Assembly: GCA_017504625.1 (NCBI GenBank)
Contig: JAFVQU010000018.1
Coordinates: forward strand, 1 to 42,629
Length of the DNA: 42,629 bases
Origin: Clostridia bacterium
Lineage (GTDB): Bacteria > Bacillota > Clostridia > Oscillospirales > CAG-272
Direction of reading: 5' to 3'
Positions 499 through 40,838 of the stretch are shown here, piece after piece. The notes under the pieces were generated by a model. It had not been told where the DNA came from and searched no databases. It saw only the letters and a list, made by a program, of their open reading frames with translations. The position numbers and the translations under genes were made by a program. Each line of letters begins with the position of its first letter. Position 1 is the stretch's first letter.

Positions 499-1779
499 TT
501 AACTGAAAGCATAATACCAATAGCCGTAGCCGTCTTCTTCTTTGTAAGGTATTTTTTGTGTATGAGCATTATTATAGTAAAATGACATTGTGTTGGCGCA
601 GGGAAATTCCACGTCCGTCCCGTTAACCATTACGTTTTCGTCCTTGACAAGCGAGCCACCTTCGTACATATACATCTCTAATTGGGGGAACACCCAACAG
701 CACTCAGTCTCCTCAACGTATGCGTTATTCTTATAATATCGAAGGTTTCCAAGAATAACGATGACCTTTGGTCTATAGGACAATTGCAGTTCAATATTGC
801 CTCGTCCGGTGCCGTTATAATATCCTCCCTCGATTTTGGTCATATTCTTCAGCATCTCTTTGAGCACCACACCCTGCGCCGCACTCAACGCCTTGTATGG
901 ATCATCGGTCTCAAGGTCGTTTGCAATAAGCAAGGTTTCATTGATAGCCCTGATGACTTCTTCCTTTGCAACGGGGGCTGCATCGCCGTTGAGAATTTTC
1001 TGCTGTATGTCAATTATTTCATTTACCGAACCTTCAATATCACCCAAGAATTTATTTCTGTCAAGCTCAGCATTCTTACGCTCGTTTTCGGCAAGAACTC
1101 GTTTACTCTCCGCGCTGACTCTGAGCGCCTCGGCATCATCTCTTGCTCTATCGGAAGCATCCCTTGATTCATCCGCTAAGACGCGGGATGCCTCTGCATT
1201 TTCTCTTGCAAGCTCCGCTTTTTTGCGCATATCCTCAGCGTATTTTCTTACATACTCGTTGTCTTCTCTCTTGTTTTCGGCCGTTACTCTGCTATTCTCG
1301 GCATATGATCTGCTTACCTCTGCTTCGTGTCTTGCGCGCTCGACCACGTTGATTTTAGATATCTCGGACATAAGGGCGGTTAGCATTGAATAGTCCTTAT
1401 CCTCGGTTATATCCTCACCGATATATAGCGCAATTTCTACGTCAAGATAGAAGTCAGCGCTGGTAAGCTTTTTTTCATCATCAGAAAAAATTGAAAGAGA
1501 GCATTTTACTTCTCCAACAACCGAAAGCGGCCATCCGCCAAGGACGATCGATACGCTTCCGTCATCCTCGATCTGACCCGCGAATGCACCGCTCTCCCCG
1601 TCGGGACGAGCAAAATTAAATATGGCAACGTTAGTTTTTTCAACCTTGAAGGGTACTCCTCCGTCGGTCAGATTAACAACTATCCGTCGGCTGTTAAAAT
1701 CGTTTTGTCTTGCAAAAATGAGTCTTACGTTTCCTCGTCTTGCAAGATCCACGGTAATTTTTCTTGTAATTTCCGTCAT
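499..1779 (-). CDS. BppU-like phage tail adhesin (receptor-binding cassette B)
   Basis: A 426-residue protein in three parts. Residues 1-125 are a beta-rich domain resembling the N-terminal domain of baseplate upper proteins (BppU/DUF2479), which docks the adhesin to the virion. Residues 140-245 are a long alpha-helical stalk of R-x-x-A-E/D repeats (RVLADESRD, ALRVSAESKR), predicted trimeric coiled coil. Residues 255-426 hold a conserved neck (ILNGDA, AKEEVIRAINET), a variable receptor-binding region, and the closing motif EEDGYGYWYYAFS. The paralogue at 40914-42131 keeps the neck and the closing motif, but its docking domain and variable region differ. Start ATG with AAAGGAAAAA upstream. It faces away from the recombinase at 2038, with no structural gene upstream on its strand. 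Confidence 0.85.
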   Translation of the reverse strand: MTEITRKITVDLARRGNVRLIFARQNDFNSRRIVVNLTDGGVPFKVEKTNVAIFNFARPDGESGAFAGQIEDDGSVSIVLGGWPLSVVGEVKCSLSIFSDDEKKLTSADFYLDVEIALYIGEDITEDKDYSMLTALMSEISKINVVERARHEAEVSRSYAENSRVTAENKREDNEYVRKYAEDMRKKAELARENAEASRVLADESRDASDRARDDAEALRVSAESKRVLAENERKNAELDRNKFLGDIEGSVNEIIDIQQKILNGDAAPVAKEEVIRAINETLLIANDLETDDPYKALSAAQGVVLKEMLKNMTKIEGGYYNGTGRGNIELQLSYRPKVIVILGNLRYYKNNAYVEETECCWVFPQLEMYMYEGGSLVKDENVMVNGTDVEFPCANTMSFYYNNAHTQKIPYKEEDGYGYWYYAFS

Positions 1780-2037
1780 TTTTCCTTTTTCTTTTCAATA
1801 TGGAAACAGGATCTCCCCATCTCTGCTCCCATACGCGAAAAGCCTTTCGTTAAGTTTGCTTAACTATCACGTAGATTATACACCACAAGTCAAAAACAGT
1901 AAACCCCCATCTTGAGCCATTCTCCCTTTTTGACAAAAATTCGCACTGAAGATTGTGAAAAACGAACAAAAGTATCAAATTAACACTTCTGACAGCATAG
2001 AAATATACTGTCAAAAACCAAAACGGAGTGTGACAGT
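1780..2037. promoter_or_regulatory. Divergent intergenic region between adhesin B and serine recombinase 1
   Basis: This 258-base AT-rich region separates two divergently transcribed genes and must hold the promoter of each. A possible -35 (TTGACA) lies near 1929-1934 for the rightward gene, but no good -10 at the right spacing is convincing. The clearest structure is the set of three TGACAG half-sites at 1990-2040, listed separately. No gene is visible here. Confidence 0.4.
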
Positions 2038-3009: not shown

Positions 3010-3035
3010 AAAGGTGTAAAAAAAATTACACCTTT
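3010..3035. terminator. Bidirectional intrinsic terminator between recombinases
   Basis: AAAGGTGTAA (3010-3019) and TTACACCTTT (3026-3035) form a perfect 10-bp stem with an A6 loop. T-rich tracts follow on both strands. The stem includes the stop codon of recombinase 2 (3026-3028), so it ends leftward transcription of the lysogeny operon. Confidence 0.75.
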
Positions 3036-4672
3036 AATTTTATATCGATATTGATGGGCTTTACGTCCCAATGGCCGCCTGCGGTCTTTATTGTTGTTCC
3101 CGGCGCCTCGCCCGGTGCGCGTCTTGATCGGGTTGCTTTTTCGCGGCTATAGTCTATTCTTGCAATGCAGTCCTTTAGGAGCTTATTTTTTATGCCTGCA
3201 TCTAACTCGGGATCGTTCAAGGCGTCTAAGGCTTTTTGGAAACGGACTTTTTTCTCTCCAAAATCTTCAACGGTGGGCATTGTATTTCGCGCGTTCTTTA
3301 TTGCCTCTTTTACCTCGTCCTTTTCCTTCAGAAGCTTTTCGTTGAGCATCTTAAAGATGTGTGGTGGCATTCTCTGCGATTCGTCGGGGTGAGATTGCGC
3401 TTCCCATTGCGATATTTCCCTTGCCTCAATATCCTGCAGTTTTTTCTCAAGACTCTTTAACAGCTTTTCGTGATATTTGATTGCGTCGTCGGTAGTGCTA
3501 TCGATCCTGCGCTCAAAGTCGCTTATGCTATCGGATAGGACCTTTTTAACAATGTCGATCATTTCGCTGTAAAGACACGAGCTTACATGACAGTGTTCTT
3601 GACCGTCACACAAGAGCCTCGGCGCGTTTCTCTCTCCGCCGTTCTTATCTTTATATATGCGAAGTGACATTGCCCTGCCGCATTGACAATACAAAAGACC
3701 TGCGAGGGGATTTCTTACTCCCATATTCTTGCGTAGCTTAGGGTGCTTATTAAGCTTTTCTTGTGTAGCGTAGAAAAGCTCCTCCGTAATAATGGCTTCG
3801 TGCTTTCCCTCAAACACAAGATAGTCGCCCATCTTGGACGTTGGTCGTGTCTTTCTGATCTCGCCGTCCTCGACCACGGTGGCAGTCTTTCGACAATTCC
3901 ATTTGATCTTGCCGATATAATGTATATTCGAGAGCATATTTCGGATTGCATAACTTGACCAATGGTCACCCTTCGGAGCTTTGATGCCCAACTCGTCGAG
4001 GCGATGACCAATGTTGATTGCTCCCATATTTTGATTCGTATGGAGATCGAAGATCATACGGACGACGTTTGCCTGTTCCTCATTGATAGCAAGCGTGGGA
4101 CATTTGCGCTTGCCTTCCGTGATCCACACTCGATCATATCCATACGGTGCAATAGAGCCTAAGTAGTTGCCTTCGCTTACCGAGCGCAGCGTGCCTCGAT
4201 TCATTATGTGCTTGGTATACTCAAGATACTCGTTTCCGCGTTTTAATTCCCTCTCAAAACCGTCTCTGTTATGCTCCTCTTGGAGATCAAATATCCATTG
4301 AGGAGTGATAACGAGGGTATTCGTATAACGGAACAGCTTCATAAGCCTACCCGCGTCCTCAAGGTCGCCTCGCGATAATCTTGGGACCTCAACGACGAGC
4401 ACCGCTTTGAATCTTGGCGACTCTATCAATCGGAGCAGTTTTTGCACTTCGGGGCGATCTGCGATAGTCTCGCCTGATACGACCTCTCTGAACTTGTTAT
4501 CCTCGGGCACTCTTGCACCGAGGTTTTTTTCTGCCCATTCGTCGAGAATTGACTCGTGTCTTGATAATACCTCTTCAACGGTCAAAAGCGGATCGTCGGC
4601 TCTTGACTTACGAAGATAGACGAGAACGTCGTCCGGGCAGAGATTATATTCGCTTATGTAGTTTCGGTACAA
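3026..4672 (-). CDS. int: Large serine recombinase 2, probable phage integrase
   Basis: A full-length 548-residue large serine integrase. Residues 15-150 are the resolvase domain (VLVYLRKSRADD, nucleophile Ser23, Arg21; EVPRLSRG). Residues 175-290 are the Recombinase domain (GNYLGSIAPYGYDR, IRNMLSNIHYIGKIKW). A zinc ribbon follows at about 325-370 (LLYCQCGRAMS, LLCDGQEHC, SSC), then a coiled coil at 395-500. It would join attP to a host attB; the adjacent cotJC fragment points to a spore-coat gene as target. The start is TTG at 4672, chosen because AGGAGG lies 7 bases upstream. It is the last gene of a leftward operon behind the repressor and a 53-aa membrane protein, the usual lysogeny-module layout. 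Confidence 0.93.
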   Translation of the reverse strand: MYRNYISEYNLCPDDVLVYLRKSRADDPLLTVEEVLSRHESILDEWAEKNLGARVPEDNKFREVVSGETIADRPEVQKLLRLIESPRFKAVLVVEVPRLSRGDLEDAGRLMKLFRYTNTLVITPQWIFDLQEEHNRDGFERELKRGNEYLEYTKHIMNRGTLRSVSEGNYLGSIAPYGYDRVWITEGKRKCPTLAINEEQANVVRMIFDLHTNQNMGAINIGHRLDELGIKAPKGDHWSSYAIRNMLSNIHYIGKIKWNCRKTATVVEDGEIRKTRPTSKMGDYLVFEGKHEAIITEELFYATQEKLNKHPKLRKNMGVRNPLAGLLYCQCGRAMSLRIYKDKNGGERNAPRLLCDGQEHCHVSSCLYSEMIDIVKKVLSDSISDFERRIDSTTDDAIKYHEKLLKSLEKKLQDIEAREISQWEAQSHPDESQRMPPHIFKMLNEKLLKEKDEVKEAIKNARNTMPTVEDFGEKKVRFQKALDALNDPELDAGIKNKLLKDCIARIDYSREKATRSRRAPGEAPGTTIKTAGGHWDVKPINIDIKLKV

Positions 4673-26813: not shown

Positions 26814-29800
26814 ATGGGCGTAATGGACAGATATAACGAGAGAAAGAAAAAGACCGAAGAAGGCACGGAGGAGTCCTCCGCTTCCTCGGGCGGCGTTATG
26901 CAACGATATGAGACGAGGAAATATTATAGTTCCCTGCCGACTGAGAGCGTTGACGAGAATTATATTAACACCTTTGTTTCAGATGCGAATAAATTTCTTG
27001 GTACGACCAAATTGGATAATAGCAGCTACGGAACGTGGAAAGACCTTAGCACAAGAGCTGACACTATAAGCGGTTGGCTTTATAAAAACAACGGCAGCAT
27101 AAACGCTGAGGTCTACAACAGTATTGCTGACGCTATCAATAAGTTTAATACGGCTACAAAGGATTTTACACAGTTTAAGACTGAGGACGATTATATAAGA
27201 AATCGTATTGGTTGGCTCAATGACGAAGCCAAGACCGATCAGGAAACGGCGGCAGCGAGGCAGACCTATTCTGACAGTCAATCCTCTCGTGTAAGTGAAA
27301 TCGACGAAAGCTTGCCGTGGTACGCTAAGTCTTGGGTACCTAATTTCGTAGAAAATTGGTTTCTTACCGAGGAGCAGGAATCATTGCGTGATGAGGCTGA
27401 AAGGCTTGAGGCAGAAAACACTATCTATAAGCGCGAGCAAGGCAAATTGGACTCTTACTACATACCCGAAACAGATGAGTTTAAGCAGGTAGCTTCAAAC
27501 AGAAATTTTGTGAATCCTACAAGAGAGGAATTATCTGCATACGACTCTTCCATATCGCAAGGTAGCGTTGCACTTAACAGCGGCGGTTATTTTGACGATG
27601 AAGGCAATATAAGGGATAAAGACGGCAATATCGTTCAGTATGCAGAATCTCCAATTGCTGACAAGCTTGGGCTATATCATTCCGCAACCGACACAGATAT
27701 TGCAGATGCTTATAATTTAGTTACGGGTGCAATGGGCGCTTATTCTACCACTTGGGCGGAAACGATTGTGGAAGGCGATCAGAACGAGTGGCGAGAGCTT
27801 ACGGACTATGAAATAGATCTTTACTACTACTATCTCAATACCGAGGGCAAGGAAAAGGCGTTTAAATTCCTTGACGATTTAGCTCCTACATTAACCAAAA
27901 GGGCAACGCAAAAGCGCACCGAGGCAATAAATAATACGGGTGGCTTCGGTCAGGTAGCTTTGAATATTGCTTCCGTTCCCTCTAATATTTTTGGCGGAGC
28001 GATTGCGTTCGCCGATGACGTTGCAAATCTGCTTGGAGGAAATGAAGTAAATCCTTATTCAAGAGCGCATATGCTCAGCAACGTTGCAACCGATATTCGT
28101 ACAAAAACGGCGGCGGATCTCGACGCTTGGACGGGCGGCGCGTCTATTCCGTGGCTTGATTTTAGCCTTGGCGACGCATATCAGGCGGGAATGTCGGGCA
28201 TTGACTCTCTCGTAGGCGCATATCTGCTCGGCGGAACGGGCTACGGTGTGCTTATGGGCATGGGCGCCGCATCTAACGAAATGAAGGCACTTTACGAAAA
28301 GGGCGCATCAACCGAGCAAATGCTGATAGGCGGTGTCCTTGCGGGTGCTGCCGAAATGGTATTTGAAAAATATTCGATAGACAAATTCCTTGAGGCAGGC
28401 GACGCGAAATCTATTAAGGATATTGTCGTTAACATTTTGAAACAGGGCGGCGTTGAGGCTTCCGAAGAAGCGTTTACAGAGATCGCCAACACCATTACGG
28501 ACGTTATTGTTATGGGTAGTCAATCCGATTGGGTAGACGCGGAAACCTTTATCAAGAACGTAGTTAACGCAGGCGTAGGCGGCTTTATAAGCGGCGGCGG
28601 TATGGGTGGCGTTGGCTCTACCGTAAGTTATGCTCAGTATCAAAATCAGGTCAACAAATACGGCCAGAGTATTATTGATAAGGGCGGCGTTGATTCATTG
28701 CGCGCACAAGCTTCTGAAATGTCTGACAATAAGGCAATATCAAGGCTTGCGGGTAAAGTTGCAAAAAATACTACGGCGAGGAACGTGGGACGCCTCGCTA
28801 CGACCATTCAGAACGTAACCAACGCTAAAGACCGCTCCTCTATTGCTACCGATTTGAAAAGCAAGGGCTTGACTAAGAAGGAAGCGCAGAAGGTCGCCGA
28901 TTTTACGGTTAAGGTGTCACAGGGATATAACCCTACCTCCGAAGAAATTACCGAAATTGAGCAAATAACCGACAAGCTCCCCGACGTTGCCGACGCTCTT
29001 GCAGATGATGTTTCCGACACAGACGTCGTTGAGGCTGAGGCAGAGGGCTCGCAGGGCGTTGAATCCCCTGCCCTTGCTACGCAGGCTTCGGCACAGCAAG
29101 CGGAAAAGGTTGACGTGACCGAGAACGTGTCTACCGACGAAAACGCGGCAGAAGGCAAAATTTCGGGTTCTGTTGAGGGCGCGGAAAGAGCTCCGAGTGA
29201 AAGCGCGGTCACGCTTGAAAGCGCTTCGGAAAAGTACGGTGCGCAGGCGCAGGCTATGATCCACACCTACGCCGAAGGTCAGGACGTGGAAGAATACGAC
29301 AACGCTTACAATATTGCCTATAATATGGGTATGAGCGGCGTTTCCCTCTCCTATGCTATGAACAGCAAGGGCACGGCTTATCTTTCCGAGAAACAGAGAG
29401 AGCTTGCATACGAGGCAGGACGCGCGGCGGCAGAGTCCAACGCTCGCGATCAGGACACGAAAAACAAGAACGGCGCTAACGGCAATACCGGGCGCAGACG
29501 CGGAGTCGTGCGCGGTGAGGGCGTGACGATTGCCGACCTCAAGAAAGCGTTTAGCGACACGCAGAACACGGCGTACAAGCTTCTTTGCTTCTACGCAGAG
29601 GCGACGGGCATTGAGATTGTGCTTTACAAATCCGAGGCAGGTGCGGACGGTAGATTTATCGGCTCACAGGGTAAATTCAAGTGGAGCGAGGACACGATCT
29701 ACATTGACGTTAACGCGGGACTTGCCAATATCAAGGACGTAAACGAGCTTGCAAAGTATGCCATGCTTCGCACTTTTTCACACGAATTTACACATTTTAT

Positions 29801-32800
29801 TGAAAAATGGAATCCTATATGGTATAATGAGTTCAGAAAAGCCGTGTTTGACGAGCTTTCCGCGCGTGGCGAGGACGTTGACGACCTCATTATAGCAAAG
29901 CAAAATCTTGACGGCGACAAGCCTTTGTCCTACGAAAAGGCAAGCCGCGAGGTAGTTGCCGAGGCTATGACAGATATTCTCCCTGATGCTAACTTTGTTG
30001 AAACGCTTGTCACAAAGCATAAGAACATCTTTGAAGCGTTGCTTCAAAAGCTCAAGGAGTTCCTTGCGGATCTCAAGGCGTATTTCAACACTCTCGGACA
30101 TAACCCTTCAAGAGAGGCAAATGCACTCAAGGAGCAGATCGACGGCGCTGTGCGATACGTGGATAGCATCGTAAAGCTCTTTGACAAGGTAGCGCTTGAG
30201 GCTGTGGAAAACTATCAGGCTACCGTGGCGACGGAAACAGAAAACAATAATAATACTTACGGAGGTGTAGTACATGAAGCAGAACGCGCAGAACAGACCG
30301 TCGAAAGAAGATCAAATCAAACAATTGCAAAAGGCAATGACGGATCACCGCAGAAAGAGAGAGACGGACGAGAAATATCGAAAGAAGTCAGACAACAATC
30401 AGAAGATGCTAAGAGAGACGATTCTGCCTCTTCTGAACGACACCGAGAATTAAATCACACAGATACAGCGTTTTCTAAAGATGCATATATTACACCTCGT
30501 AAAGGTTCGGTTGAAGAGACCGAAGGCAAAATTCTTGACGAGTACGGCGTTGAGTGGCATCTAATCAATAAGGAAAAATGGGATAGAATTTATATTGCTT
30601 TTGCAAAAGCAGGTGTAGTTTATCTAAGAGAAGCACTCCCCGAAAAGTTTCGAGGTGCTGTTGCTCGCCACGAAGCTACCCACATTATGAAACATCTGAA
30701 ATATCAACCGTATTTGGATTTTATTGAGCGTACTCCTAAAATGCTGAATATGTCTGCGAGTGGCGTAATGGATTTGATCACAACGATAGCCGAGCGACGT
30801 GACATTGATCTATTAAACATTGATGAACAATCATGTCAAACGATATATGATGAAATAAATGCGACTATCTACGGACAAGTTAATATATCAGAAAAAAAAG
30901 AAGCATATCTCGAATTTATCAACGAGGTTTTTTATGACTATGATAGGTATATAAAAGAACTTGATGCTATACACGATCAGTTTAAAAGAGAAAATGCGCC
31001 GAAGAAATCAGAATCAATAACTACCGAGCAGGAAACACACACAGAAACAGCGCCGGCAGAAACCAATGATTACGGTAATTTCACTATTACCGACAACGCC
31101 GAATATGGCACTCTTGAAATCAAGTTTGACGGTAAGCCTTCCGAGGCTGTCCGTGATGTGCTGAAGGAAAACAAATTCCGTTGGCACAAAGTAAAGGGCG
31201 TTTGGTATGGCAAGGGTGAGCGCACGGATATTGTCAAGGCTTTGAGAGATGCTTATACCGAGGAAGAAAACACCGCCACCAATATTATTGAGGAGGAAAA
31301 ACCTAATGTCGAAGCAGAAAATGCTGATAACGAACGACCAATATTGGAGCCTGACACCGATAGGCAAGGAGCTCCACGATCATTGGATGAACAACAAGCC
31401 GACGATGTACGCGGAGCTTCATCAGAACGGGACTCTGTGGGAGATACTCGACAGCGAGAATCACAGACTCGACGAGATGGTGATCGAGCTGACACAGCAG
31501 ATAGGCTTGGCAGGAGCGATGGAAATAGCGAGAGCGGAGATTCACGAGAGCTAACCGAAAAAGAAACTCAGGCGAAAGCTGAGGAGCTTGCCGAGACGGT
31601 TGAGCGAGAGATCGAGCAGAAATCTACCGAAAATCCCAAGGGTAACAACTTTATAATAGGCGATAGCCTTCACCTTCCCGATGGAGAAAAGGCAAGATAC
31701 CGCGCCAACGTTGATGCTATAAGGCTTATAAAGCAGCTTGAGAGCGAGGGCAGACGCGCGACGGTGGCTGAGCAGGAGATCCTTTCTAAATACGTTGGTT
31801 GGGGTGGACTGCCAAATGCTTTTGGAGAATATAGATACAACCGAGATACGCGCAGAAGCGAAATGACTGCAAAGGACGGTTGGGAAAAGGAATTTGCGGA
31901 GCTTCGTTCGCTTGTTGACGAGGGTATTATTACCGAGCAAGAATACAAGGATATGTCCGCGAGCACCAAGAACGCGCACTATACCTCTATTGAGGTTATC
32001 AAGGCTATGTACGACGGGCTTGCAAGTCTCGGCTTTATCGGCGGTCGTATGCTTGAGCCCTCCTCGGGCGTTGGTAATTTCGTAGGCGCTATGCCTGTTG
32101 AGATGAGCGCAAAGGTCAACAGTTGGACGATGGTGGAGCTTGACCGCATTACAGGCTTGATCGCAAAGTACCTCTATCCTAACGCTGACGTGCGTATTCA
32201 GGGATTTGAGACTGCTAACATTCCCGACAACTATATAGACGTTGCTATCGATAACGTTCCCTTCGGTAACTTTGGCGTGGTTGACAGGAGCTATCCCAAA
32301 CGCATTACGAAATCAATACATAATTATTTCTTTGCAAAATCAATAGACAAGGTGCGCCCAGGAGGAATCGTGATGTTTATCACGTCCTCGTTTACGATGG
32401 ATTCCAACGACAACGGCGTGCGTCAGTACATTATGGATCGCGCTGATCTTCTCGGTGCTATCAGACTTCCGAACACCGCCTTCAAGGGTAACGCGGGAAC
32501 GGAGGTAGTGACTGACATTCTCGTTCTTAAAAAGCGCGAGGACGGCACGGAATACGCGGGCGAGGATTTCCTTGAGGCTGAGTATGATTATAATTACCAT
32601 ACTTATATAAGCAATTATTTCAAAAATCATCCCGAAATGGTGCTTGGTAAGCCCGCCGTCAAGAGAGGTATGTATAACGCAAGCTCTCTTACCTACGATC
32701 CGTTAACCGACAAGGTCACTATTGACGAGCAGATAAGAGAAGCCTTTAAGAATATTAAGGGCAAAATGGATTATCCCACAAAGCCCTCTCCCGAAAAAAC

Positions 32801-35800
32801 TAATTTTGCGGTTGAGAAGGAATCAAAGAAAACGAAATCGGGCGGTTTCGTTGTGCATTCTGACGGTAGCATTTCAAGAAATGAGAACGGTCAGCTTGTA
32901 AAATACGACACCGACGAAAAGACCGCCAAGAGAATTGCGGGAATCCTCTCTATACGCGACGCCTACAGAACGCTTGCAAACTATTTGCAGCAGGGCGTTG
33001 AGACAAAGTATATCAAGAAGGCGAGGGCGGAGCTTAACAAGGCTTACGACGCTTTCGTCAAGGAATACGGTTATCTTAACTCTCCCGCAAATAAAAAAGC
33101 AATAGAAGGAGATCCCGACAGATATTCGATTCTCTCTCTTGAGAATTACGATGCGCAGAAAAAGACCGCCAAGAAGGCTGACATCTTTACAAAGGATACC
33201 ATCAGCGCAAACAAGACGGTCAATCACGTTGACAGCGTTACAGAGGGCGTTATTGCTTCGATCAATCTTACGGGCGGAGTTGACGTGTCGCTTATATCCA
33301 AGCTTACGGACAAGGGCGCAGACGCCGTGACGCGCGAGATAATTGATTCTCGCTTGGCATTTAAGACGAGAGACGGCTCTCTCGTAGCTCGCGAGGCTTA
33401 TCTTTCGGGCAACGTAAGAGCAAAGCTGCGCGAGGCGGAAGCGCTTGCACCCTACGACAGCGATTTTAATAACAACGTTGAGGAATTGCGCAAGGTTATC
33501 CCTGCGGATATTCCATACAATGAAATTTATATCACACCCGGTGCGACCTTTATTCCCAACGAGATATACGCCGACTTTATAGCGCATATGCTTGGCGGCA
33601 GAAATAATCAGAGCTACGGAAGCCCTGACGTTGAGGTGGGACGCACGTCGAGCGGTGAATTTAAGATCGTTGTCAATAATAAGCGTCTTAAGGGAAGCTA
33701 TTATAACAATCAGACTTGGGGAACGGCACGCAAGTCATTCCTTGAGCTTATCGACGCCATGATGTCAAGCCGCACGGTAAAGGTAAACGACATTATAGAA
33801 AACGGCGACGGAAAGAAGATAGCCGTTGTAAACGAAGCCGAGACCGAGGCGGCAAACGAAAAGGTTAAGGCTATACAAAAGGAATTTGAAGATTGGATAT
33901 GGAAGGACGAGGACCGCAGGATTCTGCTTGCGCGTCTTTATAACGAGATCTTCAACGCCCTTGTAAATCCAAAATATGACGGCTCGCATCTAAGCGTAAA
34001 CGGAATAAACGCCGACTACTCCCTCCGTCCTCATCAGGCGGACGCGGTACACCGCATTATCGCATCAGGCGGTAATACCCTGCTTGCTCACCGAGTGGGC
34101 GCGGGAAAGACGCTTGAAATGGCTGCGGCGGCGATGAAGATGCGCGAGCTTGGCGTTATCAAAAAGCCCGTGTTCGTCGTTCCCAAATCGGTAGTGGCAC
34201 AATGGGGCGTGGAATTTCACAATTACTTCCCTGCCGCACGACTTTTGGTTGCCGACGACAAGAGCTTTACTCCCTCAAACAGAAAGGTCTTTACCAACAG
34301 GATCGCCAACGGTGATTATGACGCGATCATTCTCTCCTACGAGCAGTTTGAAAAAATACCTATGTCGGTAGAATATCAGCAGAGCTTTTACGAGGAGCAG
34401 ATAAACGAGATTATCGCGGCTATTGCCGAGGAAAAGGCGGAGAGCCGAGACGGCAAGGGATTGACCGTTAAGGAGATGGAAAAGAAAAAGGCTCAGCTTG
34501 AAAAGAAGCTGAAGGAGCTTACCTCAAAGCCCAAGGACGAGGACAACGTTGATTTTGAGATGCTTGGAATTGACAGCTTGTTCGTTGACGAAGCGCACAA
34601 TTTCAAAAACCTTGAATACGTTTCCAAAATGACTAACGTTGCGGGACTTGGAAGCACGAAGGGGGCGCAGAGATCCTTTGACCTTTACACAAAAATACGC
34701 TACCTTCAGGGGCTTAACGGCGGACGCGGCATAGTATTTGCCACCGCAACGCCCGTTATGAACTCTATGGTAGAGCTTTATATTATGCAAAGATACCTGC
34801 AGCCCGACGTTCTCGATCAGTTAGGGCTTAAGACATTTGACGCATGGGCAAAGCAGTTTGGCGAGGTCGTCAACAAGTGGGAGATCAACCCGAGCGGAAC
34901 GGGTATGAGGCAGAAGCAGGTATTTGCGAATTTCCGAAATCTTAACGAGCTTCAACTGCTTTTCCGTAGCTTTGCCGACGTTCTGACCGACGTGCCGGGG
35001 CTTAAAATTCCCAAGATGAAGGGCGGCGCGGTAAAGATCGTTGAGTGTGAGCCGGGAGAATTCCAAAAGGAATTTATGCAAGAGCTTCAGAAGAGAGCGG
35101 AAAACGTGAAAGACGTTGATCCTTCTGTGGACAATATGCTCAAGATCACGAGCGACGGCAGAAAGGTCTCTTATACTCAACGTATGATAGATCCCACTCT
35201 TCCCTACGAGCCCGAGTGCAAGATATTCAAAGCGGCGGGAAATATCGTAAAGGAATACAACGACAGCGCTGATATCAAAGGCACGCAGATAGTATTCTTG
35301 GATATGGCGACTCCCAAGGGCACCGACAAGAGCAAGGCGGACACAAACACCGAGGTGAACGCGGACGACGGATACGACGAGGAGAGCGCAAGGCTTTACG
35401 ACGATATGCGCGATTACCTTGTGAAAAAGGGTATTCCCAAGCGAGAGATTGCATTTATTCACGAAGCCGACTCCGACGCAAAGAGAAAACAGCTCTTTGA
35501 GGACGTAAACAACGGTAAGGTGCGCGTGCTTATCGGCTCTACGGGCAAAATGGGCGTTGGTATGAATGCGCAAAAGCGCGTCGTTGCTATACATCACCTT
35601 GACGCGCCGTGGAGACCGGGCGACGTTGAACAGCGCGACGGACGAGCCTTCAGGCAGAAGAATATTAACGACGAGGTTTCCAAATACGTTTACGTTACCA
35701 AAGGAAGCTTTGACTCTCGTTTGTGGGATATTCTCGACCGCAAGCAGCACTTTATAAATCAGATAATGAACGGCGAGGACGTCGGTCGTACCGCTGAGGA

Positions 35801-38800
35801 CACGGGAGAGGTCACGCTTTCCGCCGCAGAGGTCAAGGCGTTGGCGTCGGGCAATCCTCTAATTGAGGAGCAGACCAAGCTTACCGATGCGATTAAGAAG
35901 CTTGAGAATTTGCAGAAGGCTTATAATTCGAGCATTGTTTTGGCAAGAACAAAGCTCTCGGACGACGAGACGAAGATTGCAAATTATACAAGCCGCATAT
36001 CAAGAATACGCGAGGATATAAAGGTCAGAGTTGACACCTATTCCGAGGGTAAATTCTCTATGACGGTTGGCAAGCAGACCTTTACCGACAAAAAGGAAGC
36101 GGGCGCGGCGCTTGCGGCGGCAATAGTTGCAAATGCTAACGCCGATTCTTACGTGACGGTCGGTAGTTTTGCGGGCTTTGAGCTCAGAGTTATCAAGAAC
36201 GGCGCGGAGTATAACGGTCTTATTCACGGTAAGGAAGGCTATAAATTCAACGTCTATTTGAATAACACCACAAGAATGGCAAATCACATAGGCGAAATTA
36301 TAGCAGGCTTTGAAAACATCATTAAGAATGCCGAGCAGATGATTGCAGAGCTTTCGGCTGACCGTGACGCGCAGAGGGATATACTTACAAAGCCCTTTGA
36401 AAAGCAGGACGAGCTCAACCAAAAGCGAGCGCGATTCAATGAGGTTATGGAACTTCTTGCGCCGAAAACCGAGGAACAGCTTGGCAAGATGGACGAGGAT
36501 ACCGTTCAGGAGCAAAGCAGAGATTATCTCGACTACACAGTTCAAGAATCCCATAGCCAAGCTGCACTTGAGAAGTTCGGCACAACTACCGACTACGAGA
36601 TAGCAGGATTTGTGCTTGAGGACGGCAAGATGATTAAGCTTGGTGTTAAGGGTATTGGCGTTAATCACAGCAAGATAGAGCAAGTGTTTGACGATAGGAA
36701 AGGCTCTGATGCAATCAATAGCTTTATCCAAGAGGGCAACGTGCGAATCAAAGCAAGTTCCCCCGGTATTGAGATAAGTGCAGACGCTCCCCTTACTGTC
36801 AGTCAGTTTAATACTCTCTCTCGATTTATGTCGAGCAGTTTGAGGGGCAGAGGTTATTTCTACCTTGATATTACCGATGCTGACGGAAACGAGATAGGTA
36901 CAAAGACTTACTACGATGATTCTACTGCCGAGGATATCAAGTACGATATCAAGAAATATTACCGTGACGGCACTATTCCAAAGGATGACATCTATTTCCA
37001 ACAGCGTACCGACACCTTGACAGACCGCGAGGTGCTTGAGCTTGCGGCGAACGAGATCAAGGTCAGTGATCTTACAGATGCGGAAAACGACGCTTTGACT
37101 ATCTTCCGAGACCGCCTTTCCAAGCTGAAGGATCTTCAGAGCGAGAGAGCCGAGCAGGGCAAGCTTTACAAGGAGCAGCAGTTTGGCGAGAAGGTGGACA
37201 GAAAAGCCGCTGAGGAAACGCTTAACCGTATGCACGTGCTTGACGGTCAGATAAAGAAGGCTACGGCTGAGGTATTGACCGTTGAGGAAAAGGAGGTACT
37301 CAAGCGAGTGCTTTCAAAGGCTCGCAAGGTGGTTGAGGCGCAGGAGCGAGAGCACGGACGGGAAATTCTCAACCGTTGGCGCGATCGCAGAGATAACGCG
37401 GCGGCTATCAAGAAATACCGTGATCGTTTGCGCGCTGACGTTAGCGAGCTCTCGGAGTGGATATTGCACCCCGATAATAAGGATACGGTGAAGCATATTC
37501 CCGACGTTCTTAAAAATTCGGTAATTCCCTTCCTCACGAGTATTGATTTTACAAGCAAGCGCGCGCTTAAGGGTGGCGAGGCTACGAAGGCTGACGCGGC
37601 GTTCGTGGATAGGCTCAAAAAGCTTAACGCCGCTATCAAGTCAAATATAGACGCACACGGGCTGTATTCGGGATATAACGATCTTCCCCCGAGCTTTATG
37701 GAGAATTTGCAGAAATTTATCGATTCTGCGGAGGAGCTTATAAAGTCTAATAGCGGAGATTTCGTTATAAATAAAATGACGAGCGAGGAGCTTCGCGATC
37801 TGTCGCAGATAGTGCGGACTCTCAAAAAGTATATAACGCAGATCAACCGTTTCCACTATAACGCTATGTACGAGCACGTTTACGAGGCGGGAGAAAACTC
37901 TATTGAGCATCTTTTAGAGCTTGGTAATGCGGAAAATACGGGAGCTGTTTCAAACTTTTTGCTATGGCAGCAGATGCGCCCTGCGTACGCTTTTGAGAGA
38001 TTCGGTGACGGTGGCGTGGCGATCTACGACGGACTCAGGCGCGGACAGGCACAGCTTGCCTTTAACACAAAGGAAATACAGGCGTTTACCGAGCAGGCGT
38101 ATACCGAAAAAGAGGTCAAGGCTTGGGAAGATGAAATCAAGACCTTCAATCTTGGCAATGACGTTGTAAAAATGCCCGTGTCCTATATAATGGCGTTCTA
38201 CGAGCTGAGCCGAGATCCCGAGGCGCTTGTGCATATACGTGGCGAGGGTATCAGAGTCGCAACGTACACTCACAAGGGTAAGAAAATATCCGACGTGGGA
38301 CATATTCTCACGGAGGGTGAATTTAACGAGATCATAGGCTCACTTACCGAGAGACAGAAGGAGGTTGCCGACGCGCTTCAGAAATATATGGCGGAGCAAG
38401 GCGGCAAGTGGGGTAATTTCGTTTCGGTGGCACGTTTCGGCGAAGAAATGTTTACCAATAAAAATTACTTCCCTATCAACTCTGACGGACGTCACCTTCA
38501 GGCAAATACCGACGAGCATCCGAGCGCGGCTTCACTCTACGCTCTGCTCAATATGAGCTTTACTAAATCACGACAGGAGGGCGCGAATAACCGTATCGTT
38601 ATTTACAGCATTTTTGACGTATTTGCTAACCATATGGCAAGTATGGCACAGTATAACGCTATGGCGCTTCCCGTTCTTGATGCTATTAAGTGGTTTAACT
38701 ATAAGCAGGTGTTTGTTGACGATGACGGCAACAAGACCGTAGGAGATAGCGTAAGAGAGCAGATGGACCGTGCTTACGGCGTACCCGAGGAAACGCGCCC

Positions 38801-40838
38801 CGGCAGAGGTAAGAACGGCTACGCTCAGGATTTCGTTATGAACATCATCAAGGCGTTTAACGGAACGGAGGCGCAGGGCTCGCAGTTTGATTCTCTTGCG
38901 CTTAAATCCCTACACCTATACAACATCGCGCAGATAGCGTATAACCTCCGCGTCGTAATGCAGCAGCCTTTGGCTATCACGAGGGCGGGTATGCTTATAG
39001 ACTATTCCTCTATTATCCGAGGAACGAAGCTCAGCCCCTCCGCGATCAATAAGAATATAGAGGAGATGCAGAAGCACAGCGGCATCGCGGCTTGGAAATC
39101 TCTCGGCTTCTACGACGTTAACATATCAAGAGGACTTGCGCAGATAATCAAGCACGATTCCTCGGTTATGGATAAGATAAGCGACGTTGGTATGTGGGGA
39201 GCGGAAAAGGCAGACCTGCTCACTTGGGCGGCTATTTGGAGCGCGTGCAAGGAGGAAGTTATAAAGAAACAACATCTTTCTCCCTCAAGCGACGGCTTCT
39301 TTGAAGCGGTTACAAAGCTCTTTGAGGACGTTATCTACAAGACGCAGGTCGTTGACAGCATACTGACCAAAAACGAGTTTATGCGAGATAAGGGCACTTT
39401 TGCAAGACTTGTCGGCTCGTTTATGTCTGAGCCTACCACTAACGCGAGTATGCTGATAGATGCTTATGACAAATACGCTCGTGATATTCAGCGCGGTATG
39501 ACGCGTCAGCAGGCGTGGAAGAAAAACGGCGCGATGATTGGTCGCAGGCTTTACGTATACGCCGTTGGAGCGGTTCTCTTGGCCGCAATACAGGCTGTTG
39601 CAGATGCTTGGCGTGATGACGACGATTATGAGGAATGGGGAGAAAAATGGCTTGATGCGTTCGGCGGAAACCTTATTGACGAGCTTATGCCTTTTAATAA
39701 GCTGCCGATCATGAGCGATCTTTATGATCTTGCAAAGGACTTATTGTCAATCTTTGGAGCGGATACCTACGGCAATCCTCCTCAGTTCGTACTTTTTCAA
39801 TGGTGGGACAGTCTTATCAAGGGTACGGAGATCCTCTATCAAAAGATTTCGGGCGAGGACACAAATTACACTTGGTACGGCGGTATATACAAGCTTTTAC
39901 AGGCTGCCTCGGGTATATCAGGTCTGCCTTTGGGATCTGTGACGAGAGAGATCGTGACGGCTTGGAACAATACTGTCGGAGCTATGGCGCCGAGTCTCAA
40001 GATCAAGGACTACGAGCCCAAGGAGATCACGCAGATTCGCTACGCTTACGAGGACGGCTATCTTACCGCAGAAGAAGCGACGGCACAGTTGCTTGAGCAA
40101 GGTCTTGTTGATAACGAGAACGAGGCGTATTTCACCATTCAAGGTTGGAACGCAGGCGACGGATATTCTAAATACGACAAAATATACGATGCGGTTCGCA
40201 ACGGCGCGAGCATTGACGAGACTATGGCAGAGCTTACATCGCACGGATATACCGAGGAGGACGCACTCAGTCAAGTCAAGTCTGAGATCGGCAAGTGGTA
40301 TCGCGGCGGTGAAATATCCAAGCAGCAGGCGACGAGTATGCTCACTAAATATTCAGATATGACCAACGAGGAAATATCTGCTATAGTGAACAAGTGGAGC
40401 TGTGAGGTCGTTACGGGTATTAAGTACGATGAGATCGCCGACAAATACAAAAATGGCGAGATCACTGCCTCAAGAGCGATAGATATGTATACTCGATACG
40501 GCAGTATGACGCGGGAAAAAGCGACGGAAAAGGTCACGGTTTTGGAATTTGTCAAGCAAAATCCTTCAACTGAGGGTATTTCCTACGCGGCAATCAAGGG
40601 CTACAATACTTATTGTAAGTCTTGCGGCGTTTCTGCAAGCACGTATTACAGCGTTTGGAAATATAGTTCCGAGGCAACGGCAGCGGTCGATGCAAAGGGC
40701 AACGCTATCTCAGGCAGTAAAAAATTTAAAGTCCTTTCGTATATTAATTCTCTCAATCTTACAACAAAGCAAAAGGACAGCTTGTATTTAGCATTGGGCT
40801 ACGCGACAAGTAATCTTTACGATACTCCGTGGCACTAA
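26814..40838 (+). CDS. Giant polyvalent protein: metallopeptidases, N6-methylase and SNF2-like helicase (DarB-like)
   Basis: A single 4674-residue frame, one third of the window. In order: hydrophilic N-terminus (1-380); Gly/Ala-rich membrane-seeking segments (about 385-620, e.g. YLLGGTGYGVLMGMGAA); acidic linker (725-800); metallopeptidase-like site HEFTH (990-994); charged linker (1154-1213); second site HEATH (1286-1290); small domain (about 1417-1480); linker (1498-1581); N6-methylase-like domain with EPSSGVGNF (1748) and DNVPFG (1813); SNF2-type helicase with GAGKT (2429), DEAH (2592), ATATP (2643) and QRDGRAFRQ (2940); coiled coil; a polyvalent-protein-associated domain (about 3260-3400); helical C-terminus with a hydrophobic helix near 4250 and tandem helical repeats (4405-4600). 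Methylase-helicase fusions resemble DarB, which enters with phage DNA and blocks type I restriction. Packaging in the virion is inferred. AAGGAGG precedes the ATG. Confidence 0.88.
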   Translation: MGVMDRYNERKKKTEEGTEESSASSGGVMQRYETRKYYSSLPTESVDENYINTFVSDANKFLGTTKLDNSSYGTWKDLSTRADTISGWLYKNNGSINAEVYNSIADAINKFNTATKDFTQFKTEDDYIRNRIGWLNDEAKTDQETAAARQTYSDSQSSRVSEIDESLPWYAKSWVPNFVENWFLTEEQESLRDEAERLEAENTIYKREQGKLDSYYIPETDEFKQVASNRNFVNPTREELSAYDSSISQGSVALNSGGYFDDEGNIRDKDGNIVQYAESPIADKLGLYHSATDTDIADAYNLVTGAMGAYSTTWAETIVEGDQNEWRELTDYEIDLYYYYLNTEGKEKAFKFLDDLAPTLTKRATQKRTEAINNTGGFGQVALNIASVPSNIFGGAIAFADDVANLLGGNEVNPYSRAHMLSNVATDIRTKTAADLDAWTGGASIPWLDFSLGDAYQAGMSGIDSLVGAYLLGGTGYGVLMGMGAASNEMKALYEKGASTEQMLIGGVLAGAAEMVFEKYSIDKFLEAGDAKSIKDIVVNILKQGGVEASEEAFTEIANTITDVIVMGSQSDWVDAETFIKNVVNAGVGGFISGGGMGGVGSTVSYAQYQNQVNKYGQSIIDKGGVDSLRAQASEMSDNKAISRLAGKVAKNTTARNVGRLATTIQNVTNAKDRSSIATDLKSKGLTKKEAQKVADFTVKVSQGYNPTSEEITEIEQITDKLPDVADALADDVSDTDVVEAEAEGSQGVESPALATQASAQQAEKVDVTENVSTDENAAEGKISGSVEGAERAPSESAVTLESASEKYGAQAQAMIHTYAEGQDVEEYDNAYNIAYNMGMSGVSLSYAMNSKGTAYLSEKQRELAYEAGRAAAESNARDQDTKNKNGANGNTGRRRGVVRGEGVTIADLKKAFSDTQNTAYKLLCFYAEATGIEIVLYKSEAGADGRFIGSQGKFKWSEDTIYIDVNAGLANIKDVNELAKYAMLRTFSHEFTHFIEKWNPIWYNEFRKAVFDELSARGEDVDDLIIAKQNLDGDKPLSYEKASREVVAEAMTDILPDANFVETLVTKHKNIFEALLQKLKEFLADLKAYFNTLGHNPSREANALKEQIDGAVRYVDSIVKLFDKVALEAVENYQATVATETENNNNTYGGVVHEAERAEQTVERRSNQTIAKGNDGSPQKERDGREISKEVRQQSEDAKRDDSASSERHRELNHTDTAFSKDAYITPRKGSVEETEGKILDEYGVEWHLINKEKWDRIYIAFAKAGVVYLREALPEKFRGAVARHEATHIMKHLKYQPYLDFIERTPKMLNMSASGVMDLITTIAERRDIDLLNIDEQSCQTIYDEINATIYGQVNISEKKEAYLEFINEVFYDYDRYIKELDAIHDQFKRENAPKKSESITTEQETHTETAPAETNDYGNFTITDNAEYGTLEIKFDGKPSEAVRDVLKENKFRWHKVKGVWYGKGERTDIVKALRDAYTEEENTATNIIEEEKPNVEAENADNERPILEPDTDRQGAPRSLDEQQADDVRGASSERDSVGDTRQRESQTRRDGDRADTADRLGRSDGNSESGDSRELTEKETQAKAEELAETVEREIEQKSTENPKGNNFIIGDSLHLPDGEKARYRANVDAIRLIKQLESEGRRATVAEQEILSKYVGWGGLPNAFGEYRYNRDTRRSEMTAKDGWEKEFAELRSLVDEGIITEQEYKDMSASTKNAHYTSIEVIKAMYDGLASLGFIGGRMLEPSSGVGNFVGAMPVEMSAKVNSWTMVELDRITGLIAKYLYPNADVRIQGFETANIPDNYIDVAIDNVPFGNFGVVDRSYPKRITKSIHNYFFAKSIDKVRPGGIVMFITSSFTMDSNDNGVRQYIMDRADLLGAIRLPNTAFKGNAGTEVVTDILVLKKREDGTEYAGEDFLEAEYDYNYHTYISNYFKNHPEMVLGKPAVKRGMYNASSLTYDPLTDKVTIDEQIREAFKNIKGKMDYPTKPSPEKTNFAVEKESKKTKSGGFVVHSDGSISRNENGQLVKYDTDEKTAKRIAGILSIRDAYRTLANYLQQGVETKYIKKARAELNKAYDAFVKEYGYLNSPANKKAIEGDPDRYSILSLENYDAQKKTAKKADIFTKDTISANKTVNHVDSVTEGVIASINLTGGVDVSLISKLTDKGADAVTREIIDSRLAFKTRDGSLVAREAYLSGNVRAKLREAEALAPYDSDFNNNVEELRKVIPADIPYNEIYITPGATFIPNEIYADFIAHMLGGRNNQSYGSPDVEVGRTSSGEFKIVVNNKRLKGSYYNNQTWGTARKSFLELIDAMMSSRTVKVNDIIENGDGKKIAVVNEAETEAANEKVKAIQKEFEDWIWKDEDRRILLARLYNEIFNALVNPKYDGSHLSVNGINADYSLRPHQADAVHRIIASGGNTLLAHRVGAGKTLEMAAAAMKMRELGVIKKPVFVVPKSVVAQWGVEFHNYFPAARLLVADDKSFTPSNRKVFTNRIANGDYDAIILSYEQFEKIPMSVEYQQSFYEEQINEIIAAIAEEKAESRDGKGLTVKEMEKKKAQLEKKLKELTSKPKDEDNVDFEMLGIDSLFVDEAHNFKNLEYVSKMTNVAGLGSTKGAQRSFDLYTKIRYLQGLNGGRGIVFATATPVMNSMVELYIMQRYLQPDVLDQLGLKTFDAWAKQFGEVVNKWEINPSGTGMRQKQVFANFRNLNELQLLFRSFADVLTDVPGLKIPKMKGGAVKIVECEPGEFQKEFMQELQKRAENVKDVDPSVDNMLKITSDGRKVSYTQRMIDPTLPYEPECKIFKAAGNIVKEYNDSADIKGTQIVFLDMATPKGTDKSKADTNTEVNADDGYDEESARLYDDMRDYLVKKGIPKREIAFIHEADSDAKRKQLFEDVNNGKVRVLIGSTGKMGVGMNAQKRVVAIHHLDAPWRPGDVEQRDGRAFRQKNINDEVSKYVYVTKGSFDSRLWDILDRKQHFINQIMNGEDVGRTAEDTGEVTLSAAEVKALASGNPLIEEQTKLTDAIKKLENLQKAYNSSIVLARTKLSDDETKIANYTSRISRIREDIKVRVDTYSEGKFSMTVGKQTFTDKKEAGAALAAAIVANANADSYVTVGSFAGFELRVIKNGAEYNGLIHGKEGYKFNVYLNNTTRMANHIGEIIAGFENIIKNAEQMIAELSADRDAQRDILTKPFEKQDELNQKRARFNEVMELLAPKTEEQLGKMDEDTVQEQSRDYLDYTVQESHSQAALEKFGTTTDYEIAGFVLEDGKMIKLGVKGIGVNHSKIEQVFDDRKGSDAINSFIQEGNVRIKASSPGIEISADAPLTVSQFNTLSRFMSSSLRGRGYFYLDITDADGNEIGTKTYYDDSTAEDIKYDIKKYYRDGTIPKDDIYFQQRTDTLTDREVLELAANEIKVSDLTDAENDALTIFRDRLSKLKDLQSERAEQGKLYKEQQFGEKVDRKAAEETLNRMHVLDGQIKKATAEVLTVEEKEVLKRVLSKARKVVEAQEREHGREILNRWRDRRDNAAAIKKYRDRLRADVSELSEWILHPDNKDTVKHIPDVLKNSVIPFLTSIDFTSKRALKGGEATKADAAFVDRLKKLNAAIKSNIDAHGLYSGYNDLPPSFMENLQKFIDSAEELIKSNSGDFVINKMTSEELRDLSQIVRTLKKYITQINRFHYNAMYEHVYEAGENSIEHLLELGNAENTGAVSNFLLWQQMRPAYAFERFGDGGVAIYDGLRRGQAQLAFNTKEIQAFTEQAYTEKEVKAWEDEIKTFNLGNDVVKMPVSYIMAFYELSRDPEALVHIRGEGIRVATYTHKGKKISDVGHILTEGEFNEIIGSLTERQKEVADALQKYMAEQGGKWGNFVSVARFGEEMFTNKNYFPINSDGRHLQANTDEHPSAASLYALLNMSFTKSRQEGANNRIVIYSIFDVFANHMASMAQYNAMALPVLDAIKWFNYKQVFVDDDGNKTVGDSVREQMDRAYGVPEETRPGRGKNGYAQDFVMNIIKAFNGTEAQGSQFDSLALKSLHLYNIAQIAYNLRVVMQQPLAITRAGMLIDYSSIIRGTKLSPSAINKNIEEMQKHSGIAAWKSLGFYDVNISRGLAQIIKHDSSVMDKISDVGMWGAEKADLLTWAAIWSACKEEVIKKQHLSPSSDGFFEAVTKLFEDVIYKTQVVDSILTKNEFMRDKGTFARLVGSFMSEPTTNASMLIDAYDKYARDIQRGMTRQQAWKKNGAMIGRRLYVYAVGAVLLAAIQAVADAWRDDDDYEEWGEKWLDAFGGNLIDELMPFNKLPIMSDLYDLAKDLLSIFGADTYGNPPQFVLFQWWDSLIKGTEILYQKISGEDTNYTWYGGIYKLLQAASGISGLPLGSVTREIVTAWNNTVGAMAPSLKIKDYEPKEITQIRYAYEDGYLTAEEATAQLLEQGLVDNENEAYFTIQGWNAGDGYSKYDKIYDAVRNGASIDETMAELTSHGYTEEDALSQVKSEIGKWYRGGEISKQQATSMLTKYSDMTNEEISAIVNKWSCEVVTGIKYDEIADKYKNGEITASRAIDMYTRYGSMTREKATEKVTVLEFVKQNPSTEGISYAAIKGYNTYCKSCGVSASTYYSVWKYSSEATAAVDAKGNAISGSKKFKVLSYINSLNLTTKQKDSLYLALGYATSNLYDTPWH
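30274..30453 (+). CDS. Nested small gene 1 in the +1 frame of the giant gene
   Basis: The frame ATG 30274 to TAA 30451-30453 encodes 59 residues: MKQNAQNRPSKEDQIKQLQK, then a basic helical segment and LRETILPLLNDTEN. A strong GGAGGTG site lies 6 bases upstream. The composition is that of an ordinary small coiled-coil protein, whereas the giant-frame reading of the same bases (about residues 1154-1213) is a featureless charged linker. It sits exactly between the first and second metallopeptidase domains. Either it is expressed from within the giant mRNA, or it is a relic of a once-separate gene. Confidence 0.5.
   Translation: MKQNAQNRPSKEDQIKQLQKAMTDHRRKRETDEKYRKKSDNNQKMLRETILPLLNDTEN
31306..31554 (+). 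CDS. Nested small gene 2 in the +1 frame: TnpV-like protein
   Basis: The frame from ATG 31306 to TAA 31552-31554 encodes 82 residues with a well-formed helical pattern (TPIGKELHDHWMNNKPTMYA, HQNGTLWEILDSENHRLDEM, AMEIARAEIHES). It resembles the TnpV family of small transposon and mobile-element proteins, which share an 'iGk...r..hrp.lY..ll..G.L...L..id' pattern. GAGGAGG lies 9 bases upstream. The giant-frame reading of the same bases (residues 1498-1581) is polar low complexity (ENADNERPILEPDTDRQGA). It lies at the seam between the small domain and the methylase domain. Confidence 0.6.
   Translation: MSKQKMLITNDQYWSLTPIGKELHDHWMNNKPTMYAELHQNGTLWEILDSENHRLDEMVIELTQQIGLAGAMEIARAEIHES

Follow-up and report, generated by a model that had tools for sequence, protein, structure and literature searches.

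How did two short genes come to lie out of frame at the domain seams of a giant phage gene that reads straight through them? The question is raised by a 42,629-nt contig of a Clostridia bacterium (Oscillospirales, CAG-272; GCA_017504625.1, JAFVQU010000018.1), analysed in its entirety (hereafter 'the window') and belonging to a 1.96-Mb assembly. Phage portal, head, and internal virion protein genes are present in the window, the portal and head genes adjoining the giant gene. A preliminary description of this DNA proposed a read-through fusion of an ancestral operon: three long genes with two small genes between them would have fused when stop codons were lost, the long frame then crossing the small genes in another frame.

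Polyvalent proteins of phages and conjugative elements are likewise giant and multidomain, with peptidase-like parts and a methylase–helicase pair (Iyer et al. 2017, PMC5512222); in the available text of that article, 'TnpV' and 'overlapping' occur 0 times and an out-of-frame gene is not described. The rpn genes-within-genes likewise yield a small protein translated inside a longer gene, but their small product is, in the sections available, an in-frame C-terminal part of the long one (PMC10327210), whereas the second nested gene here (ORF2) uses another frame and is related to a free-standing family, TnpV (PF14198). For TnpV of Tn4451, a role in excision has only been postulated, from homology with lambda Xis, in an article whose accessible part describes no nesting (PMC3158075). 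Elements that bear TnpV are reported to be inserted in the snf2 gene of S. suis elements, TnpV there being called a transposase (the accessible part of PMC9815147), which is a different thing from a frame nested in a helicase gene. Within the accessible literature on TnpV and polyvalent proteins, which includes few subscription journals, a gene nested in a helicase gene is not described.

The giant gene and its nested genes

The giant gene (Table 1) runs through a HExxH domain, ORF1, a second HExxH domain, a small domain, ORF2, and a methylase, in that order. It joins several conflict-type domains in one phage polypeptide, as polyvalent proteins do, with SNF2-rel_dom (E 3.3e-13, aa 2418–2601) and Helicase_C (E 4.7e-7, aa 2867–2948) assigned through Pfam, the methylase through homology (tblastn) to phage genes named DarB-like, and the peptidase parts through HExxH only, neither of them reaching any Pfam family cut-off.

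Table 1. Positions of the giant gene, its domains, and the nested genes in the window.
Feature	Position	Strand	Description
Giant polyvalent gene	26814..40838	+	4674 aa, continuous ORF; core is methylase and SNF2 helicase
Peptidase-like domain 1	29574..30236	+	HExxH motif, by eye
Shine–Dalgarno (SD) of ORF1	30261..30267	+	ggaggtg, read from sequence
Nested ORF1	30274..30453	+	ATG start, 59 aa, frame +1 of giant
Peptidase-like domain 2	30468..31001	+	HExxH motif, by eye; kept in 7/7 aligned
Small domain	31062..31259	+	After peptidase 2 in the window
Shine–Dalgarno (SD) of ORF2	31290..31296	+	gaggagg, read from sequence
Nested ORF2, TnpV-like	31306..31554	+	ATG start, 82 aa, frame +1 of giant
Methylase and SNF2 helicase region	31650..36200	+	Query for relatives; methylase from about 31650

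Both small genes lie at domain seams, as had been claimed, each with an SD site and an ATG. Four out-of-frame SD–ATG starts were found in the giant gene with a simple SD pattern followed by ATG, opening 59, 6, 4, and 82 codons, and ORF1 and ORF2 are the only ones to open more than six. The ORF2 frame is open already from 31249.

It is very improbable that the two ORFs are not genes at all but by-products of base composition, arising in a frame where long open stretches come easily. Their lengths are unremarkable, since frame +1 of the giant contains open stretches of up to 134 aa without a start signal. They stand out because they are the sole long SD–ATG starts, because conservation falls on the small frame of ORF2 and not on the giant frame, and because both recur at these seams in relatives. 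For ORF2 above all, the SD site, the kinship with a named family, the purifying selection seen in its frame, and a place conserved over wide distances argue against such an origin. As a separate observation, long open runs (134 aa in +1 and 122 aa in +2) lie at 39728–40360, near the 3' end of the giant gene, without an SD–ATG start.

The small gene in phage relatives

Used alone as queries, the small proteins gave no match in IMG/VR, phages, or plasmids, and among 146 genomes found only the window's own. Relatives were reached through the methylase instead: the first two IMG/VR contigs, at 86% identity, were mutually identical over a shared 8.5 kb, and 80 loci were obtained later. With an iterated profile, 63 of 79 IMG/VR loci (near copies included) proved to have an ORF2-like gene no more than 600 nt upstream of the methylase, in frame +1 in all 63, of which 18 were profile seeds and 59 are distinct. 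The phages that share this joint infect very different bacteria. Strong SD sites stand upstream of 43 of these 63 genes; at 1580 randomly drawn +1 places the fraction is 0.05.

The common frame carries less weight than it might seem to, since long out-of-frame ORFs in these genes favour +1 anyway. In a profile-free scan of 75 distinct giants, SD–ATG ORFs of at least 45 aa numbered 41 in +1 versus 1 in +2 in the pre-methylase zone, and 42 and 1 in the rest of the whole gene; downstream of the methylase, long out-of-frame ORFs numbered 19 in +1 and 1 in +2.

The other 16 IMG/VR loci, in which the profile threshold admitted no ORF2-like gene upstream of the methylase, are heterogeneous. TnpV is nested farther upstream in five (L243, L252, L253, L270, L271); the methylases of L247 and L279, both partial contigs, match those of loci of this farther-upstream type; another SD-started +1 ORF occupies the place in L231, L233, L277, L278, L280, and L283; L233 and L293 pass at a laxer threshold; and in L244 and L255 nothing was seen before the methylase. 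The ORFs of L277 (7618–7959), L278 (3288–3629), and L283 (7618–7959) resemble one another and differ from ORF2, and may represent replacement of the small gene by another. Further protein-like, SD-started +1 ORFs lie upstream of the methylase in L235 (6667–6825), L269 (6007–6168), L284 (510–659), L288 (6199–6345), L286 (6631–6801), and L032 (6222–6407), and a second hidden gene may be common in phage giants.

Among named phages, the small gene has no annotation of its own in any of the five in which it was found (VvAW1, SopranoGao, BcepMigl, Atu_ph08, and PBC5). In a Monoglobus plasmid, the gene table, which is known to be incomplete, includes TnpV but shows no helicase gene where the match lies. 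It was not found in phage P1 darB, nor in Komagataeibacter (L308), Rhodococcus (L309), or Bacteroides phage BKO1-TP3 (L317). PBC5 (L314) was considered as an ancestral split, its ORF2-like stretch being in frame with an upstream ORF, but its relative Atu_ph08 is continuous, and we take the PBC5 arrangement as a frame break.

Kinship with TnpV

By profile comparison, the phage ORF2 family is homologous to TnpV (hhalign 97.5%, E 7.7e-12; score 55.9 versus a maximum of 17.0 in 100 column shuffles). ORF2 of the window itself scores 15.2 bits, below the curated cut-off of 27, and it differs from TnpV as usually met in being nested in another gene; among its relatives, L289 (56.9) and L294 (30.9) pass the cut-off and L222 (23.3) fails. 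On these profile scores, ORF2 is classed as a remote TnpV homologue. TnpV copies nested in the giants of L024, L025, L027, and L029–L031 score 122 to 147 bits against the same cut-off, and in related mobile elements the nested TnpV lies farther upstream of the methylase than in phages.

Of the 196 genomes from the window's family, 112 contain TnpV. When named genomes were scanned with one nested TnpV as query, 66 of 80 loci were nested in a long ORF (66/66 in frame +1), 1 was nested at a contig end, and 13 were not nested. A second family sample, with 30 places picked by the tool and 60 picked from the TnpV list blind to context, gave 92 TnpV hits: 79 not nested, 10 at an edge, 1 briefly covered, and 2 nested, the nested share being lowered by omission of places already taken beside a methylase and of several near contig ends. 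The two samples together indicate that nesting is not general for TnpV and accompanies the giant gene. Among TnpV loci with a non-nested copy, the only ones with giant parts are L023, which is cut by the end of the stretch, and L026 and L153, each of which holds a second, nested copy. L038 was considered as an unfused gene and rejected: homology to the N domain continues in both of its ORFs, which places a frame break inside that domain.

Constraint on the two frames

Of the 91 pairs formed by 14 phage ORF2 genes, 88 show pN below pS when read in the small frame, compared with 11 when read in the giant frame and 63 when read in the third; the alignments were built on the small protein, which favours the small frame. 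For nested TnpV pairs of equal length, the corresponding counts were 260, 26, and 86 of 260, and for TnpV outside giants they were 116, 10 (giant-type frame), and 41 of 116. Comparison of nested and outside TnpV indicates that the giant frame is, at the protein level, no more constrained than an unused frame. By these substitution patterns, the small frame of ORF2 is under purifying selection, as in true overlapping genes.

What is kept in the giant frame is its openness. An earlier comparison (74/74 nested open versus 0/86 non-nested) defined nesting by the open frame and was true by construction; the stop test was therefore repeated with context set by homology of the flanks. On that basis, the giant frame is stop-free in all TnpV loci flanked on both sides by giant parts (71/71) and in all those flanked by the N part only (3/3); where neither part is present, it is open in 1 of 96. 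The frequency of T at third positions follows the same classes (0.079, 0.073, and 0.223, respectively). When synonymous codons are shuffled, the fraction in which the giant frame stays open is 0.145 in nested TnpV, 0.0033 in the other copies, and about 0.01 in either ORF of the window. Frame +1 suits such an overlap, since it acquires a stop only if AA, AG, or GA follows a small-gene codon whose last base is T, and most third bases can be replaced without altering the small protein.

The linker encoded across the small gene has a disordered composition in each of the 63 phage giants, as does the giant protein across both ORFs of the window; the linker's hydrophobic fraction is 0.10 versus 0.32 in the methylase, and is the lower of the two in all 63 phage giants. 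Judged by composition and stop avoidance, the giant frame across ORF2 is a disordered linker, kept open, with little else evident. The open-frame counts (71/71 versus 1/96) make the small gene look older than the linker that crosses it.

That order of events is the reverse of overprinting, in which the small genes would have been born inside the linkers of the giant. The linkers have low complexity, which makes new frames cheap, and several of the upstream +1 ORFs appear lineage-specific; even so, with many TnpV copies outside giants, the giant-type frame closed in 95 of 96 of them, and the small frame as the conserved one, we regard overprinting as improbable.

Unfused and possibly intermediate forms

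The family DUF1896 (PF08989; solved structure 2apl) offers a comparison in which the small gene is free. In three Bacteroidetes plasmids, it is a small gene directly upstream of the methylase–helicase gene, as ORF2 is directly upstream of that region, but it is a separate gene that overlaps the helicase gene by 11 nt; the helicase gene begins at the methylase, and its frame is closed upstream. One of these, a Bacteroides plasmid, has the order zincin (ArdcN and MPTase-PolyVal), DUF1896 preceded by DUF4116, methylase–helicase. The DUF1896 gene further differs from ORF2 in its greater length (145 aa in L310) and in lying in frame +2 of the helicase, the nested genes lying in +1. In a Prevotella DUF1896 locus, the 6.4 kb examined contain no helicase, and the IMG/VR search returned no DUF1896. 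In locus L307 (3112–3606), the annotated helicase start (3606) falls inside the methylase homology, which starts at 3501, and was probably annotated too late.

DUF1896 is probably, though not certainly, kin to ORF2 and TnpV. Compared with the ORF2 profile by hhalign, it gave 31.7% with 25 rows and 85.4% (score 33.3) with 64 rows, and 0 of 200 column shuffles of the 64-row comparison scored as high; compared with TnpV itself it gave 0.7%, and ORF2 of the window has no Pfam match to PF08989.

Plasmids of Salmonella, Arthrobacter, and C. jejuni look like a middle step. In each, an open helicase frame spans a small +1 ORF close to the helicase's own start; this ORF matches the ORF2 profile in Salmonella (E 4e-4) and TnpV in Arthrobacter (E 7e-4 with the in-house profile, 0.05 with Pfam), and neither of the two in C. 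jejuni. The three states—small gene separate, under an N-terminal tail of the helicase, and between fused domains—fit a gene that grew, although the Bacteroidetes forms may instead have arisen by fission.

These forms bear on the proposed read-through in two ways. Its core is upheld to the extent that the small genes are real, that ORF2 looks older than the linker, and that free-standing relatives and an unfused order in Bacteroidetes plasmids exist; relatives are not all continuous giants with seams devoid of small frames, the pattern that would have spoken against it. Stop loss as the sole cause of the nested frame, on the other hand, would not suffice: with the Bacteroidetes small gene in +2 and the nested genes in +1, an indel would be needed too.

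Methylase tree and order of events

An unrooted tree of 121 methylase domains, obtained by quick search and subject to a long-branch warning (L320, L306, L032, L317, and others), places the separate type on one side of a starred branch. A starred set of 37 rows comprises 29 with TnpV farther upstream, 7 with none, and 1 with the gene near the methylase, and the remaining rows mostly have the gene nested before the methylase (69 rows in all). Class labels were in part set by hand: C. jejuni L306 was placed in the 'tail' class (+1 ORF with SD, no profile hit), L310, L318, and L320 were labelled individually, and PBC5 is in the 'tail' class only through its broken frame. Omitted from the tree were L215, L221, L232, L241, and L253 (copies or partial), L026 (broken frame), and L033 (too short).

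The overlap with ORF2 is spread over most of the 121-row tree, which implies that it is ancient and long predates this phage. The label 'nested before methylase' requires 11 changes, 7 of them forced by starred branches, so moves or losses of the small gene must also have occurred.

In a different history, a mobile TnpV-type gene would have entered the linker of an already fused giant and been kept since the frame stayed open. In its favour, TnpV is common outside giants (79 of 92 hits not nested, in the sample omitting places beside the methylase), its distance from the methylase differs between phages and other elements, and ORF1 with peptidase 2 comes and goes. We nevertheless consider insertion rather unlikely, though the least so of the alternatives, because the pre-methylase place is kept across much of the tree, even where the upstream part is very short (L311), and because rows without the small gene are a minority (17 of 121), some of them carrying TnpV (L044, L037) or being partial contigs.

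The first seam

ORF1 behaves differently from ORF2. It lies directly upstream of every full-length peptidase 2 found (7/7 distinct loci); in L225, it is gone together with the first part of peptidase 2, and in L219, L223, and L224 neither was seen. Among the 27 loci to which the peptidase 1 scan extended, peptidase 1 was matched in L004, L216–L226, and, weakly, L228, that is, in nearer relatives, and peptidase 2 in fewer. From this distribution, the joint between ORF2 and the methylase is older than the peptidase joints. The small domain, moreover, precedes ORF1 in L004 and L226, in contrast to its place in the window.

The constant company of ORF1 and peptidase 2, together with a small domain that moves, looks like cassette shuffling, and the first seam looks like a travelling pair rather than a relic of three neighbours. 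A simple local fusion of three genes is hard to support, given how old the overlap with ORF2 is, how ORF1 moves in company with peptidase 2, and how the small domain shifts position. Nor did relatives with the window's three long genes apart, which that proposal had led us to seek, appear among the 27 scanned loci, the 79 IMG/VR loci, or ten peptidase 2 loci.

A search of 391 genomes of the class matched peptidase 2 in a single one, the window's own, and ORF1 in two: the window's own and one with an ORF outside any giant. The latter (L332, genome G542, 1435–1788, minus strand) encodes 118 aa with the ORF1 motif and a cysteine-rich tail. ORF1 may have been born inside a linker, although this ORF outside any giant can be set against that.

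A proposed history and its implications

We think it probable, on the sequence comparisons presented above, that an old gene of the TnpV kind lay beside a methylase–SNF2 helicase gene, that the helicase frame ran across it and joined upstream domains, and that cassettes came later. ORF2 would descend from that once-free small gene. In an ancestor of the phage and mobile-element proteins, the helicase frame would have become continuous across it in another frame, linking upstream domains to the helicase, while the small gene would have kept both its protein and its ribosome-binding site. Read in the giant frame, this stretch would then have turned into a disordered linker whose main constraint is the absence of stops. 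ORF1 with peptidase 2, and the small domain, would have been added or moved at the same joints later. Ribosomes presumably start at the internal SD on the giant's message, so that the small protein would be made beside the giant one.

As a guess from its constant place adjoining the methylase–helicase, the small protein may be a helper or regulator of that enzyme; the occurrence of TnpV in elements without a helicase nearby argues for a wider role.

More tentatively, and with the chances of being right and wrong nearly balanced, we suggest that TnpV, ORF2, and DUF1896 form a hidden family that is the standing partner of methylase–SNF2 polyvalent proteins, and that the giants grew as a frame carried back through this partner captured upstream genes, the overlapped gene being left at the joint as a fossil of the operon. 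If the proposed history is true, it provides a traceable route to giant multidomain proteins, in which an interdomain linker is the out-of-frame reading of an older gene, and it means that a conserved small gene has been missed by gene finders in many phages. A named family without an assigned function would also gain a strong context, beside an anti-restriction type methylase–helicase, in which its function becomes testable.

Elsewhere in the window, two recombinase genes lie on opposite strands (2038–2886, plus; 3026–4672, minus); their best NCBIfam matches, below the cut-off, are Ccr-type cassette recombinases.
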